Below the pieces are notes generated by a model that did no database searches, was not told where the DNA came from, and saw only the letters and a list, made by a program, of their open reading frames with translations. The position numbers and the translations under genes were made by a program. This document shows, piece after piece, positions 20,691 through 27,229 of a DNA stretch of 61,179 bases (within the stretch, counting starts at the first letter, position 1; every line of letters begins with the position of its first letter). The DNA comes from Cetobacterium somerae ATCC BAA-474. Its GTDB lineage: Bacteria > Fusobacteriota > Fusobacteriia > Fusobacteriales > Fusobacteriaceae. Location of the stretch: NCBI RefSeq assembly GCF_000479045.1, contig NZ_KI518116.1:1-61179 (forward strand), in the 5' to 3' direction.

Positions 20691-21356
20691 ATGGGAGATT
20701 ACTTAAGTACACTAAAAACAATTTTTATTGATGGTTACAGATATCAATACGTTCTTCAAGGTTTAGCTTTTTCAGTTGGTGTTACAGCTTTTTCAGCTAT
20801 CTTTGGTGTTATTTTTGGTATTTTTATCGCACTTTTAAGACTTTCACCTAGATTCAAATGGATAGCTATTTGCTATATTGATCTTATTAGAGGGACTCCA
20901 GCAGTTGTTCAACTTCTAGTTCTAGCTAATATTATTTTTGCTGGATTCCGTGACATGCCTATATTTTTAGTTGCTGGTATTGCCTTTGGAATAAACTCTA
21001 GTGCTTATGTTGCTGAGATTATCAGAGCTGGTATTGAAGGGTTAGATAAAGGACAAATGGAAGCTTCTAGAGCTCTTGGAATGAGTTATCCAATGGCTAT
21101 GAAAGAGGTTATAATTCCACAAGCTATTAGAAAAATACTTCCAGCATTAGTTAGTGAATTTATTACTCTTTTAAAAGAGACATCTATAGTTGGATTTATC
21201 GGTGGAGTAGACCTTTTAAGATCTGCAAACATAATTACATCTCAAACTTATAGAGGAGTTGAGCCACTACTTTTAGTTGGTTTAATATACCTAGTTTTAG
21301 TTGGAATCTTTACAAAAATCATGAGAGGCGTTGAAAAGGGGTTGAGTAATAAATGA
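20691..21356 (+). CDS. Polar amino-acid ABC transporter, permease
   Basis: A 221-residue inner-membrane permease of the HisM/GlnP family with about five membrane helices. The EAA loop appears as [25 protein letters not shown] near residues 124-148 and contacts the ATPase. It is the first structural gene after the attenuator, has an AAAGGAG site, and its stop overlaps the ATPase start by 4 nt. Substrate class is polar or basic amino acids. The leader peptide's arginine codons hint at arginine or another basic amino acid, but this is inference. Confidence 0.92.
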
Positions 21357-22081
21357 TAAAAGTTGATAATTTATTTAAAAATTATGGGGAACTTGAAGTT
21401 TTAAAAGGAGTTTCTACTCATATAATGAAAGGAGAAGTTGTTGCAGTAATTGGACCTTCTGGAAGTGGAAAATCCACATTTTTAAGATGTATAAATCGTT
21501 TAGAAGAACCTACTCTTGGGCATATCTATATCAGTGGAGAAGATATTATGAGTTCTAAAACAGATATAAATCATATGAGAGCTAAAGTTGGAATGGTTTT
21601 TCAACACTTCAACCTTTTTCCCCATAAAACAGTTCTTGAAAATCTTACTTTAGCTCCTATGAAAGTTAAAAGTATGAAAAAGGAGGATGTTGAAGAAAAA
21701 GCTCTTATTTTATTAAAAAAAGTTGGTTTAAAAGATAAAGCTTTAGCATATCCAGATCAACTATCTGGAGGTCAAAAACAAAGAATAGCTATTGCTAGAG
21801 CTCTTTGTATGGATCCTGAAGTTATACTCTTTGATGAACCTACATCTGCTCTAGACCCTGAAATGATACGTGAAGTTTTAGATGTTATGAGAGATCTTGC
21901 TAAAGAGGGAATGACTATGGTTGTAGTTACACATGAAATGGGATTTGCTAGAAAAGTTGCAGATAGAGTTTTATTTATGGATCAAGGATCTATTTTAGAA
22001 GATACAACACCTGACGAACTTTTTGACGGGTCTAACCACTCTAGAGCAAAAGATTTCATTGAAAAGGTTTTAAATCATTAA
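21353..22081 (+). CDS. Polar amino-acid ABC transporter, ATP-binding protein
   Basis: A GlnQ/HisP-type ATPase of 242 residues. Walker A (GPSGSGKST), Q-loop ([10 protein letters not shown]), signature LSGGQKQR, Walker B ([14 protein letters not shown]) and the H-switch ([10 protein letters not shown]) are all intact. It energises uptake by the adjacent permease. It overlaps the permease by 4 nt and lies 34 nt before the binding-protein gene. Confidence 0.95.
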
Positions 22082-22115
22082 TATAAAATATTTTAAAAAC
22101 ATTGAGGAGGATATT

Positions 22116-22835
22116 ATGAAAAAGATTTTTAAAAATTTGGTTTTATTTTTAATGTTAATTATGAGTACTTTAACTTTTGCAAAAGGAAAACTTTATGTTG
22201 GTACTAATGCTGAATTTCCACCCTTCGAATACCTTGATAAAGGGGAGGTAGTTGGATTTGATATAGATTTAGTTAAAGCTATTGGGGAAAAATTAGGTAT
22301 GGAAATAGTTATTAAAGATATGGCTTTTGATGGGCTAATTCCAGCTCTTGAAACTAATAAAATAGATATTGTTATAGCTGGAATGACAGCTAGTGATGAG
22401 AGAAAAATGGCTGTTAATTTTTCAAATCCATATTACACAGCTAACCAAGTTATAATTTTAAATGATAATAATAGTGATATTAAAACATTCGATGATTTAA
22501 AAGGAAAACTTGTTGGAGTTATGCTAGGATTTACTGGGGATGTTGTAGTTAGTGAGATGAAGGATGTTAAGTCAAAAAAATATAATGCTTCTTACGCTGC
22601 TATCATGGAACTGCAAAACAATAAAATCGATGCTGTTGTTTTAGATTCTGAAACTGCTTTAAACTATGTGAAAAATAACAAAGGTTTAAAATTAGCAGAA
22701 ACATCTGGAGAACCTGAAGAATATGCTATTGCTATCTCTAAAAAAAATAGTGAGCTTTTAAATAAAATCAACACAGCTTTAGATGAATTGAAAAAAGATG
22801 GAACTTATGAAGCTCTTTTGAAAAAATATATGTAA
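22116..22835 (+). CDS. Polar amino-acid ABC transporter, periplasmic binding protein
   Basis: A SBP_bac_3 family protein of 239 residues with a signal peptide ending near TLTFA. The ligand-binding features GTNAEFPPFEYLD, VGFDIDLVKAIGEKLG and the GMTASDERKMAVNFSNPYY segment are clear. It delivers the amino acid to the permease-ATPase complex. There is no lipobox cysteine at the cleavage site, as expected for a free periplasmic protein in a Gram-negative cell. The exact ligand is not readable from sequence. Confidence 0.93.
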   Translation: MKKIFKNLVLFLMLIMSTLTFAKGKLYVGTNAEFPPFEYLDKGEVVGFDIDLVKAIGEKLGMEIVIKDMAFDGLIPALETNKIDIVIAGMTASDERKMAVNFSNPYYTANQVIILNDNNSDIKTFDDLKGKLVGVMLGFTGDVVVSEMKDVKSKKYNASYAAIMELQNNKIDAVVLDSETALNYVKNNKGLKLAETSGEPEEYAIAISKKNSELLNKINTALDELKKDGTYEALLKKYM

Positions 22836-22844
22836 ATATATATA

Positions 22845-22870
22845 AAAATCCCCCTAGCTAGGGGGATTTT
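22845..22870. terminator. Bidirectional terminator between the ABC operon and the NRPS gene
   Basis: AAAATCCCCCTAG joined directly to CTAGGGGGATTTT forms a perfect 26-nt palindrome with A/T flanks on both sides. It serves the convergent transporter and NRPS transcripts. Confidence 0.88.
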
Positions 22871-25715
22871 ATTTTTTATACTTACTTATTGTTTCTAAGT
22901 TTGGATTTAATAGAATTTTTTCTACTCCCTCTTTATTTATAAAAGGTTCTATCTCATTTATAAATCTAACTATACTCAAAGAGTCTGCACCTAATTCATA
23001 AAAATTCCAATTCACTTTATTTTTATCTATTTTTATCTCTAATATCTCTTCCCAAATTTTGATAATCTTTTTTTCAAAACTTGATAATGACACCTCATCT
23101 ATATTATCTTTAAAATCTTTTTGTCCTAACTCTTTAAGTTTTTTTAAATCTAATTTTCCATTAGAATTTAGTGGAAACTCATCAATTTCAAAGAAAGCAT
23201 ATGGTATCATATATTCTGGTAACTTTTCTTTAAGATTTTTTAAAAGTTCTTTTTGATCTATTTTTCCAATATAATATGCTAACAAAGCATTTTTAGATGA
23301 GTTAGGAACAACTCTACACCCTACTACTGATGGATATTCCTCTATCTTTTTTTCAATCTCTTCTAACTCTATACGATAACCTCTAATTTTAACTTGGAAA
23401 TCTTTTCTTTCTAAAAACTCCAAATCATTATCTTTATTTATTCTACATAGATCTCCTGATTTATAAAATCTTTTATTTTCTAAGTATATAAATTTATCTG
23501 TAGTCTCTTTTAAGTTATTATAATATCCTTTTGCTAAACAGTCTCCACCTATAAATAGTTCTCCCATATTTTCATTAGTATCAATCTCTAAATAAAGATC
23601 AATATTATCTAAAGGTTTTCCTATTGGCAATCCCTCTCCTATATAAGTTTTATTTTTATCAAAAATATGGTATATACACCCCACTGTAGCTTCTGTTGGT
23701 CCATATTCATTAACTATTTTACAACTATCACCTAAAATATCTTGAGCTTTTTTAGCTGTACTTACCTTTAACTGTTCTCCACCTACAATTACTAACTTAA
23801 ACCTATCCTTTTTTATATTATATTTTGAAATAATTTCCAAGTGAGTTGGTGTCATTTTTACACTATTCATTTTACTATTTTCAAAAATATTTTTTAAAGT
23901 TATTGGTGTAATTTTCTCATTAAAAAACTCTATTTTCCCACCTGCTAGTAATGTTGTAAAAATCGCTGTTATAGATAAATCAAAGGATATTGATGTGAAA
24001 AAACCAAATATACTTTTCTCTGTTATCCCATATTTTTCAATGCAGTTAGATATATAGTTACAAAGTGTACCATATGTTATTTCTACACCTTTAGGCTTTC
24101 CTGTGCTTCCTGAAGTGTAAATAGTATAAATAACATCTTCATTTTTATATTCTGTAAACTCTTTAAAATTTAGATTATTTAGAGTATCTTCTTCTAAAAT
24201 AAACTCTAAAGATTCTAACAATATCTTACTTGCTGAGCTCTCCTTTATATAATCTACTCTTTCTTTTGGGTACTCTGGATCTATTGGTATAAATACAGCT
24301 CCTACTTTTATACATGCTAATATAGAGATTAAATAACTTGAGTCTCTTTTTGTTGATATAGAAACTCTGTCTCCCTTGTTAACTCCTATTTTTTTCAAAT
24401 AATTAGCTACTTTTGAAGCACCAATAAATATATCTCTATAACTTATTTCTTTATTATTCTCTAAAGTTAAAATATCTTCTTGATCAGATTTTTTAAAAAT
24501 ATCTTTAAATACATCAACTTTTTTTACCTCTTTATTACCTTTAATCTCAACTTTCACTCTATTTAAAAGAGTATCTTTTAACTTTTCTAAATACTCCTCT
24601 AATTTCTCCTCTTCATAGTTATCTTCATAATACCCAACTGTTATTATAGTTTTATTCTCTAACTCAGTTATTACAAAAGATAATGGAACTAGTGGTGTTA
24701 TTACTGGTAGTGCATAAACTTTTTCTGGTATAAAATATTTTGTTTTATAATTTTGTAAATCAATTCTACCTAAATTTGATATTACCGCTGTTGTTGCAGT
24801 TTTTTCTTGCCTATTATAATTAAAAATTGTATATTTTAATCCCAATCTTAAAATATCCATTGGAATATTCTCAAATATAAAATACTCCTTTGGTGAATAT
24901 TCTATATCTTCATTTTTTAATATTGTATTTATTAAATCTTTATTTATCTCTTGCCAATTTTCACTTGTAGTTTCTAAATACATGGGTAGTGATAGATTTC
25001 CAGTATTTAATTTTTCTTCTGGAAACTTTTCTCTTATATCTCTTGTTATTATAAATCTACTTTTAGAATCTTCACTTAAACTCTGAATACCACCTATTAA
25101 TTTAGCTGTTATACTATTTATTTTTTCATCAAGCTCAATTTTTTTAGAGATTGGATCTGTAATTTTATAAGATACTCTATCTTTTAGTGGTGAATATTTT
25201 CCAACTGTTACTATGTCGCTATTTTTCTTAATTCCACTATCTTTTAGTAAATCTATGTCTCTCACTTTAGAAGAAAACTTTTCAACCTCTAAATTATTAA
25301 GCTCTTTAAAAATTGCTTCAATCCAAATTCCTTGTCCTTTTCCATCCATCACTCCATGGTGAGTTCGAAATATAATTGTTATTTTATCAAATTCATTAAG
25401 ATAGTATATTTCACAGGCTACATCTTTAGTTAAATCGATCTTTCTTTTCATTAACTCTTTAAAATCTTTTCCCACATCTTTTCTTTGAATCTTGATAACT
25501 TTTGGACAGAGTTTTGAATCTACCCAAAATCCATTTTTTAATTTAAATCTACTTTCAGGATATATCTCACTAACTTTATTAACTGCTTTTTGAAAAACAT
25601 CTATTTTTATATCCCCTCTTCCCTCTACAATCCTATTTATTACAAAAGAGTTATAGTTTTTTTCAAATGCTAGATACATTCTCTCATTAGGAGATAACTT
25701 TCTTTTATTCATCAT
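22869..25715 (-). CDS. Single-module nonribosomal peptide synthetase-like protein (C-A-PCP)
   Basis: A 948-residue protein with three parts. A condensation/acyltransferase-like domain (1-390) has an intact HHGVMDG at 119-125. An adenylation domain (about 410-860) has A3 TSGSTGKPKG (534-543), A5 NEYGPTEATVG, A7 YKSGDL, A8 IRGYRIE and A10 NGKLDL with Lys854. A carrier domain has LGADSLS with Ser912 for the phosphopantetheine arm. No thioesterase or reductase follows. Hand alignment to GrsA gives the specificity residues D579 L580 T583 K620 I643 G645 E670 V678 G679 K854, close to the published asparagine code (DLTKLGEVGK). It likely joins an acyl donor to asparagine. It overlaps the DUF2147 gene by 4 nt. 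No phosphopantetheinyl transferase is in the window. Confidence 0.85.
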   Translation of the reverse strand: MMNKRKLSPNERMYLAFEKNYNSFVINRIVEGRGDIKIDVFQKAVNKVSEIYPESRFKLKNGFWVDSKLCPKVIKIQRKDVGKDFKELMKRKIDLTKDVACEIYYLNEFDKITIIFRTHHGVMDGKGQGIWIEAIFKELNNLEVEKFSSKVRDIDLLKDSGIKKNSDIVTVGKYSPLKDRVSYKITDPISKKIELDEKINSITAKLIGGIQSLSEDSKSRFIITRDIREKFPEEKLNTGNLSLPMYLETTSENWQEINKDLINTILKNEDIEYSPKEYFIFENIPMDILRLGLKYTIFNYNRQEKTATTAVISNLGRIDLQNYKTKYFIPEKVYALPVITPLVPLSFVITELENKTIITVGYYEDNYEEEKLEEYLEKLKDTLLNRVKVEIKGNKEVKKVDVFKDIFKKSDQEDILTLENNKEISYRDIFIGASKVANYLKKIGVNKGDRVSISTKRDSSYLISILACIKVGAVFIPIDPEYPKERVDYIKESSASKILLESLEFILEEDTLNNLNFKEFTEYKNEDVIYTIYTSGSTGKPKGVEITYGTLCNYISNCIEKYGITEKSIFGFFTSISFDLSITAIFTTLLAGGKIEFFNEKITPITLKNIFENSKMNSVKMTPTHLEIISKYNIKKDRFKLVIVGGEQLKVSTAKKAQDILGDSCKIVNEYGPTEATVGCIYHIFDKNKTYIGEGLPIGKPLDNIDLYLEIDTNENMGELFIGGDCLAKGYYNNLKETTDKFIYLENKRFYKSGDLCRINKDNDLEFLERKDFQVKIRGYRIELEEIEKKIEEYPSVVGCRVVPNSSKNALLAYYIGKIDQKELLKNLKEKLPEYMIPYAFFEIDEFPLNSNGKLDLKKLKELGQKDFKDNIDEVSLSSFEKKIIKIWEEILEIKIDKNKVNWNFYELGADSLSIVRFINEIEPFINKEGVEKILLNPNLETISKYKK

Positions 25716-26158
25716 AATTTTTCATCACCATATTTTTTTATGTACTCTTTATCTATTTTTTTCCAAACTCTCTTAGCTCCCAATATTCCATGAGGATCAA
25801 GTGAACCTTTTAATATAAATTTATTACCTTCAAGTTTTACAGAGGCATAATATTCTCTTGAACTTTTTGGATCTATTATTCGCCCCTTTTTGTATGTTAC
25901 ATCATCAACTTTTTGAAAATCTTTTACTAACTCAAAATCTATTATCTCATCTTTATTTGTATAACTTATTATATTAAAATTTTTATCAACTGTCGCTATA
26001 TACTTTATTTTTCCTATATATGTATTTTTTTCCTTTTCTATTAAAACAATGGCTTCCTTTCCATTTTTTCCCTCTTGAGTCATCCAATATCCTAAAATTG
26101 AATTAGCAAATAACATATTTCCTACAATCATAAAAAGTATTATAATTCTCATTTTCAC
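25712..26158 (-). CDS. Exported DUF2147-family protein
   Basis: A 148-residue protein with a signal peptide (cleavage probably after MLFANS) and the DUF2147 pattern: LGYWMTQEGKNGKEAIVLIEKEK, then a GKIKYI strand and a late GRIIDPKSSREYYASVKLEGNKFILKGS. The family forms small periplasmic beta-sheet proteins without a defined role. Its stop overlaps the NRPS start (ATGATGA), so the two are translationally coupled. A role in handling or exporting the NRPS product at the envelope is possible but unproven. Confidence 0.8.
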   Translation of the reverse strand: MKMRIIILFMIVGNMLFANSILGYWMTQEGKNGKEAIVLIEKEKNTYIGKIKYIATVDKNFNIISYTNKDEIIDFELVKDFQKVDDVTYKKGRIIDPKSSREYYASVKLEGNKFILKGSLDPHGILGAKRVWKKIDKEYIKKYGDEKL

Positions 26159-26316
26159 AAACTCCTTTTATTTTTAATAACTTAATATTATAACTTATAG
26201 TTACATATAGTAATATTAGAAATACTTTACGCTTTTCTTTTCTATTATTTTTCTAATAGCTTTATCTATCTTTTTATGATATAATTTTCCGTTAAAATAT
26301 ATTTTAGGAGGTTCTT

Positions 26317-27201
26317 TTGAAAAAAACTTTAGTATTGCTAATCACTTTTATTTTTAATAGTATTTTACTTATCTCTTCTGATAATTCTTTACATAATAAA
26401 TCTATGTTTCCTTTACTTGGAGACGAAGCTCGTAAAATGGGGTATGAACTTCCAAATCCTTATGGAATAAATGTTATATATGTAGATATGAAACAAGATG
26501 TTGATATTAAAGAGATTAACTTAACAGGAACCATTGGAAAATTAGATATTGGAAAAAGTTTAAATCTTAATGCAGATAAAGCTAAAACAGTTAATACAAA
26601 TAAACTGGTTAAAGCTGACATTTGGGTTTTCCCTTTTTTAAATGTTTATGGAATTTTAGGAAAAACAAAAGGACATTCTACAGCTAATGTCAATGGAACT
26701 TTCTTTTTACCATCTATCTTTCCAACTGGAAAACCTATTCCTATACCTATTAAAGATGTTGATTTTACTTTAAGATATGAAGGAACTACTTATGGAGTTG
26801 GAACTGTTTTAGCTGGAGGGTATAAAAATTTCTTCTCTCTTGTTGATTTCAACTATACTAACACTACTTTAAATATTATTGAGGGAGATATCTCGGCTTT
26901 TGTTGTTTCTCCAAAAGTTGGTTATAACTTTGACTTTTATAACACTAAAAACTCTATTTGGATTGGAACTATGTATCAAAATATTACCCAAACTTTAAAA
27001 GGAGATATCAATACACTTGGAATTCTTCCACCTGGAATCAATGTTAAAAATGGAAAATTTGAAGTAAAAGAGAGTACTTCATCTCCTTGGAACAATGTTA
27101 TTGGTTTTAGAAGTGAAATAAATAAATCAGTTGAATTTACAACTGAAGTTGGTTTTGGAAAGAGAAAGAGTGTAACTCTCTCTTTAGGATATAGATTTTA
27201 A
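26317..27201 (+). CDS. Outer-membrane beta-barrel protein of unknown function
   Basis: A 294-residue protein starting at TTG behind TAGGAGG. A signal peptide is followed by alternating beta strands and the C-terminal aromatic ending LGYRF typical of outer-membrane barrels inserted by BamA. I do not recognise a specific family. It is divergent from the DUF2147-NRPS pair and shares an intergenic region of 158 nt with it, so the two units may be co-regulated. A channel for import or export is one possibility. Confidence 0.75.
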   Translation: MKKTLVLLITFIFNSILLISSDNSLHNKSMFPLLGDEARKMGYELPNPYGINVIYVDMKQDVDIKEINLTGTIGKLDIGKSLNLNADKAKTVNTNKLVKADIWVFPFLNVYGILGKTKGHSTANVNGTFFLPSIFPTGKPIPIPIKDVDFTLRYEGTTYGVGTVLAGGYKNFFSLVDFNYTNTTLNIIEGDISAFVVSPKVGYNFDFYNTKNSIWIGTMYQNITQTLKGDINTLGILPPGINVKNGKFEVKESTSSPWNNVIGFRSEINKSVEFTTEVGFGKRKSVTLSLGYRF

Positions 27202-27229
27202 AAAAAAGCTGAATCTCTTCAGCTTTTTT
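27202..27229. terminator. Bidirectional terminator between convergent genes
   Basis: AAAAAAGCTGAA-TCTC-TTCAGCTTTTTT ends both the outer-membrane protein gene (plus) and the MscS gene (minus). Confidence 0.9.

Follow-up and report, generated by a model that had tools for sequence, protein, structure and literature searches.

A 61,179-nucleotide stretch of the Cetobacterium somerae ATCC BAA-474 genome (the window) carries a nonribosomal peptide synthetase (NRPS) gene that, together with the genes for a DUF2147 protein and an outer-membrane-type barrel protein, forms a cassette gained or lost as one unit. The NRPS is a single C-A-T module without a release domain; its adenylation (A) domain is predicted to load asparagine, and its condensation (C) domain, judged by sequence, is of a divergent subfamily whose closest kin occur in lipstatin-type operons and in Streptomyces polyketide synthase (PKS) clusters. 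An original prediction, made from the window, had pointed to a small acyl-amino-acid metabolite; we now favour, as the likeliest chemistry, an asparaginyl lipid produced by a module of lipstatin type. Enzymes of this kind are already known, and what is new is the cassette, the code, and the envelope partners.

Domain anatomy and asparagine-type code of the NRPS

The NRPS and DUF2147 reading frames, their strands, their start-stop overlap, and the divergent barrel gene were all recovered where the original prediction had placed them (Table 1). The C, A, and carrier domains had been called intact, and their motifs are present. Pfam AMP-binding scored 192.8 bits on the A domain, with AMP-binding_C also above its cut-off; the core motifs YTSGSTGKPKG and GPTEATVG were found, and the Lys517 equivalent is K854. 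The carrier domain reached 27 bits with PP-binding (cut-off, 20.8) and holds the serine of LGxDS. Pfam Condensation gave 24.5 bits, under its curated cut-off of 30.6, though the C fold is clear in the structural model. About 36 amino acids remain after the carrier serine, and the protein is thus without a TE or R domain, as had been predicted. The possibility that the whole protein is an acyl-CoA ligase or DltA was rejected, as the NCBIfam DltA score of 267.6 bits falls short of the cut-off (476).

Table 1. Features of the cassette and its NRPS (positions in the window)
Feature	Position	Strand	Basis or remark
Cassette as one unit	22836..27227		Flanks: SBP stop 22835, MscS stop 27228; flanks 47 bp apart in relative without cassette
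C-A-T single-module NRPS, 948 aa	22869..25715	-	ORF call, Pfam, full-length relatives in lipstatin-type operons (28% identity over 970 aa)
Divergent condensation domain, residues 1-390	24546..25715	-	AF2 model, VIA, subfamily search
HHGVMDG catalytic motif, residues 119-125	25341..25361	-	
Adenylation domain, residues 419-854, code DLTKIGEVGK	23154..24461	-	
Carrier (T) domain, LGADSL, Ser912 at 22980-22982	22887..23090	-	
4-bp ATGA stop/start overlap of DUF2147 and NRPS genes	25712..25715	-	
Exported DUF2147 protein, 148 aa, predicted lipocalin fold	25712..26158	-	Pfam, AF2, VIA
Divergent promoter region	26159..26316		Conserved RBS AGGAGG ahead of TTG start on + side
Outer-membrane-type barrel protein, 294 aa, signal-peptide-like N-terminus, C-terminal GYRF	26317..27201	+	Sequence

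Specificity residues were read from an alignment to gramicidin and tyrocidine A domains, at ten positions that we take to follow PheA numbering. The same ten letters, DLTKIGEVGK, occur in all eight cassette NRPSs, which come from two genera and fall to 46% overall identity. They agree at nine of ten positions with DLTKLGEVGK, which we take to be the published Asn code; the match claimed originally is therefore borne out and extends, invariant, to eight genomes. Over the same range of identity, HHxxxDG and the carrier serine are retained and the frames are without stops.

The AF2 model of the C domain (residues 1 to 402; pLDDT, 86.7) displays a full condensation fold with HHGVMDG intact. Foldseek likewise returned the condensation fold (E 1e-18), and VIA gave Z scores of 29 to 35 to the best structures, where AzeD of P. 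aeruginosa ranked first (34.8) and pyochelin Cy second (29.3). Lower scores were obtained for CDA-C1 (29.2), the RzmA starter domain (28.8), and the C domains of LgrA and BmdB (24 to 26), so that the starter C domains stand level with pyochelin Cy and under AzeD. No sequence relationship to the starter C domains of RzmA or CDA was seen in a PDB profile search.

Sequence proved more informative than the fold. A set of 72,556 plasmid records was searched with the C domain alone and with the full NRPS. The full protein reached 1500 records through its A domain; the C domain alone matched only 23 (21 from Streptomyces and 2 from Rhodococcus), with E 1e-37 to an lst-type module. All 10 of the matches inspected are single-module NRPSs of about 1000 to 1140 amino acids, and 6 of them sit in operons with genes for a KASIII, a second protein, an AMP/acyl-CoA ligase, an NAD-dependent epimerase/reductase, the NRPS, and a formyltransferase, which we take to be the published lst (lipstatin) gene set. 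The L029 operon encodes an OleD-like reductase, and its "hypothetical" second gene resembles a KASIII gene. Identity between the cassette C domain and those of lst type is 22 to 28%, and a Rhodococcus NRPS aligns with the window protein over its full length (28% identity over 970 amino acids; E 8e-137). Two further inspected relatives, L028 and L037 on Streptomyces plasmids, have type I PKS genes as neighbours, and their codes are DLTKIGEIGK and DLTKVGEIGK; the combination of an Asn-type single-module NRPS with type I PKS and TauD/TfdA genes at these loci suggests an amino-acid-decorated polyketide. A literature search gave no match for a Cetobacterium NRPS of the cassette kind. The earlier statement that no product is described is thus true of the cassette, but the enzyme family has described relatives of lipstatin type.

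In a midpoint-rooted tree, the fusobacterial NRPSs form one group that includes a distant protein of G045, whose row lies on a long branch. That protein, from another Fusobacteriaceae genus, is a C-A-T relative with the code DFTKIGEVSK, encoded within a larger, unexplored fusobacterial biosynthetic cluster (L011, G045:C289, 408-8315) that also holds an OleD-like reductase, an SDR, an MBL-fold protein, an AMP-ligase-like protein, and a PRK07204-type KASIII. The locus was considered as a lipstatin operon and rejected: the OleD-like reductase is present, but the KASIII matches NCBIfam PRK07204 and is not OleA-like. It was retained only as a relative.

Distribution of the cassette and its envelope partners

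NRPSs look rare in Fusobacteria, and the unusual character ascribed to this one holds, since its C-domain type occurs in 9 of 98 genomes of the phylum. In eight of those nine, a close relative of DUF2147 lies directly upstream of the NRPS gene, and the two genes are linked in all eight; a close relative of the barrel is found in each of these cassette genomes and is adjacent in seven. The barrel occurs without the NRPS in just one other genome of the set (G003). The co-occurrence of barrel and NRPS gave a Fisher p of 6e-11 over genomes and of 0.02 over genera, the latter showing that relatedness limits the weight of the association. A scan of genome contigs returned one close relative only, in a Cetobacterium metagenome-assembled genome, at 90% protein identity.

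In five Cetobacterium genomes, the window included, the cassette lies between an amino-acid-binding-protein (SBP) gene and mscS. The cassette-free Cetobacterium genome G008 presents a clean empty site, with the SBP and mscS stop codons 47 bp apart; in G013, the contig stops at mscS and the site is visible from one side only. The cassette is missing in half of the Cetobacterium genomes. Three genomes, G014 and two from a second genus (g11), have the cassette genes at unrelated places, once in the collinear order barrel-DUF2147-NRPS. The amino-acid SBP/ABC genes (20691-22835) were rejected as cassette members for Cetobacterium because they are present at the equivalent site in G008. Downstream of the NRPS gene in G048 (L010, 9324-10873) are a lone SBP_bac_3 amino-acid-binding gene, whose product is 49% identical to that of window positions 22116-22835, and an MBL-fold gene; that this family abuts the NRPS in both G048 and Cetobacterium is perhaps a coincidence. 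Next to mscS, G008 (L019:8999-11746) and G013 (L020:932-3679) encode a 915-amino-acid protein whose start resembles a signal peptide and which cassette-bearing genomes lack at this place.

The three cassette genes are plainly constrained, with dN/dS values of 0.09 to 0.21 compared to 0.02 to 0.13 for their neighbours. Between species the values are 0.13 to 0.20 and the NRPS-DUF2147 pair is kept in eight genomes, so the arrangement noticed in the window lies beyond chance.

The DUF2147 protein scored 55.2 bits with PF09917 (cut-off, 27); its gene may start with GTG at 26158, although ATG at 26152 is likelier. Its AF2 model (pLDDT, 82.6) has a predicted lipocalin (calycin) fold: the best VIA match was the HP1028 lipocalin of Helicobacter pylori (4INN), with Z 15.5 over 117 residues at 2.1 Å and 21% identity, and the next match reached 8.6. 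Fatty-acid-binding proteins follow HP1028 in the Foldseek list. On the strength of the model, a lipocalin adjoining a lipid-type NRPS would be coherent, though a common fold does not reveal the ligand. We know of no NRPS partner of HP1028, and a literature search on DUF2147 by name found no functional study. Two more DUF2147 paralogues occur in the C. somerae genome (G000:C36:77-544 and G000:C156:8746-9189), neither beside an NRPS gene.

The barrel is putatively of outer-membrane type, as its sequence features suggest. A promoter scan of the region between it and the DUF2147 gene did no better than shuffles. The protein family crosses phyla: homologues with 34 to 40% identity were found on Enterobacterales and Photobacterium records (E. 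coli, Klebsiella, Rahnella, Proteus, and Photobacterium; L022-L027), where they adjoin a BamA/TamA-like protein and mostly also a DUF4056 protein. No NRPS of the cassette type was found in the stretches inspected near these homologues.

Proposed chemistry and its alternatives

The lipstatin NRPS was reportedly found by Bai et al. in 2014 to be required to join leucine, via its carboxyl group, to a hydroxyl on the fatty chain; capping of the amine by a formyltransferase is ascribed to the same work. A lipstatin-like transfer from carboxyl to hydroxyl would account for the missing release domain. Esterastin, a relative of lipstatin, carries N-acetyl-asparagine and so offers a chemical precedent for an Asn ester of a lipid. 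We tentatively prefer, at somewhat less than even confidence, a three-gene envelope cassette in which the NRPS puts Asn on a lipid hydroxyl or amine, the C domain releases it, and the product is handled by DUF2147 together with the barrel. The cytoplasmic NRPS would adenylate asparagine and load it on the carrier domain of the same protein, which AcpS, as the sole phosphopantetheinyl transferase (PPTase) of the cell, would convert to the holo form. The lipstatin-type C domain would then pass the asparaginyl group to the lipid, condensation itself being the release step, with no need of a thioesterase. The exported Asn-lipid would be bound in the periplasm by the DUF2147 lipocalin, and the barrel would place it in, or pass it through, the outer membrane. 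The domain anatomy, the conserved Asn-type code, the kinship of the C domain, the gene linkage, the lipocalin fold, and the missing matches for a thioesterase or an Sfp-type PPTase come from computation; we infer the ester or amide bond, the identity of the lipid, the binding of the product by DUF2147, and the role of the barrel.

Searches of the C. somerae genome (3.07 Mb) bear on several of these steps. The check for a PPTase that accompanied the original prediction turned up a single gene, of AcpS type, and no Sfp-type PPTase was found in this genome or in ten others. Strict conservation of the NRPS in AcpS-only genomes points to AcpS as the candidate partner of its T domain. No match to PF00975 was obtained in the genome at E ≤ 0.001 for a thioesterase acting in trans; an Asn-S-T donor and a lipid hydroxyl acceptor, with condensation as release, would fit the absence of a thioesterase from both protein and genome. 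No LstA-D-like lipid-chain genes or formyltransferase lie next to the cassette, and no exporter lies inside it. In the rest of the genome, the search for lipstatin-like chain building yielded only two KASIII genes, both FabH-like in appearance, which leaves an ordinary cell lipid as the acceptor to be expected. The missing chain, formyltransferase, and exporter genes weigh against the asparaginyl-lipid proposal, as do the low identity (22 to 28%) to lst-type C domains, a C fold that is by VIA about as near to the starter C domains RzmA and CDA-C1 as to a Cy domain, and the presence of the barrel family without the NRPS in G003 and Enterobacterales.

The main rival, close to the view of the original prediction, is lipo-initiation, in which the C domain would acylate the amine of T-bound Asn with acyl-CoA or acyl-ACP as donor; N-acyl-Asn would then leave through slow hydrolysis or with the help of some further enzyme, and the DUF2147 lipocalin would bind it. 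The C-A-T order without an upstream carrier speaks for it, as do the higher Z scores to the RzmA starter domain and CDA-C1 (28.6 to 29.2) than to the LgrA and BmdB C domains (24 to 26). Direct use of acyl-CoA is possible for starter C domains, and in RzmA, chain length is gated by R148, the residue eight positions beyond the catalytic histidine, with shorter side chains admitting longer chains (PMC7804268). At this position, located by motif offset, the cassette proteins have Gln and the L010 protein has Ala; if lipo-initiation held, this would suggest that the chains are of short to medium length. Fatty acid amides of gut bacteria are likewise made by C domains whose nearest kin are starter C domains, but they carry DHxxxDS rather than the HHxxxDG of the cassette NRPS (PMC13142362). 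Further, AzeD scored well above the starter C domains and pyochelin Cy level with them, the sequence kin of the C domain are lst-type modules, and the genome lacks a thioesterase match; we consider lipo-initiation unlikely, though well worth weighing. What stands of the earlier claim of a dedicated, envelope-linked acyl-amino-acid is a dedicated, envelope-linked small molecule, supported by the gene linkage and lipocalin fold; acylation of Asn is less supported, the C-domain kin being lst-type or PKS-linked.

AlmEFG adds glycine, and DltABCD D-Ala, to envelope components. By a similar decoration, Asn might be moved to a fixed component (the hydroxyacyl chain of lipid A, a lipoprotein, or a glycan) that DUF2147 and the barrel assemble. 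The partners are indeed exported and of outer-membrane type, the Enterobacterales kin of the barrel adjoin a BamA-like and mostly a DUF4056 protein, and the AcpS-only genome presumably fits AlmEFG- or DltABCD-type systems. The cassette, however, holds no AlmG-, DltB-, or DltD-like transferase, the C domain is without an export signal, and the nearest relatives are in metabolite operons, which together make such decoration improbable. It is more improbable by far that the NRPS is a degenerate remnant that makes nothing any more for want of an Sfp-type PPTase. Although AcpS alone was found, the dN/dS of the cassette exceeds that of its neighbours, and half of the Cetobacterium genomes lack it, dN/dS between species is still 0.13 to 0.20, and the catalytic motif, the carrier serine, and all ten code positions are kept to 46% identity without stops.

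Cetobacterium is a major fish-gut symbiont. If the asparaginyl-lipid proposal is true, a lipstatin-type module has been recruited to make a lipid tagged with Asn that has a periplasmic carrier of its own, a DUF2147 protein gains a functional context, and product release by a thioesterase-less C-A-T module is explained. Asparaginyl ester or amide lipids, or else N-acyl-Asn, would be expected in cassette-positive strains only. In its fullest form the proposal is possible but distinctly doubtful: a mobile three-gene system of Gram-negative gut bacteria, in which an AcpS-activated, thioesterase-free lipstatin-type NRPS would make an asparaginyl lipid that a dedicated lipocalin delivers to a cognate outer-membrane barrel, would constitute a new pathway for an envelope or secreted signalling lipid.

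Comparison with known systems

The cassette NRPS resembles the LstE-type NRPSs of lipstatin operons in being a C-A-T single module of about 1000 amino acids with a C domain of the divergent subfamily, the comparison being with the operon NRPSs rather than with S. toxytricini LstE itself. It differs from them in its Asn-type code, as the lst-type codes are DIFALGGVVK and DMALIGSIVK. The lipstatin operon further comprises LstA/B (KASIII), LstC, LstD, and LstF, whereas the cassette is without lstA-D or lstF and has a lipocalin and an outer-membrane barrel instead; LstA and LstB have been described (PMC12141560). The PKS-linked C-A-T NRPSs of Streptomyces (L028 and L037) share both the C subfamily and an almost identical code (DLTKI/VGEIGK) with the cassette NRPS but, unlike it, adjoin type I PKS and TauD/TfdA genes. 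The starter (lipo-initiation) C domains of RzmA and CDA have the fold and HHxxxDG of the cassette C domain (Z about 29) but work within multimodular lines. Finally, the gut fatty-acid-amide systems OaaA/OaaACP/OaaC resemble the cassette as short NRPS-like systems of gut bacteria for lipid-amine chemistry, but work with stand-alone proteins, a fatty-acid-activating A domain, and DHxxxDS (PMC13142362), in contrast to the Asn-type A domain and HHxxxDG of the cassette NRPS.
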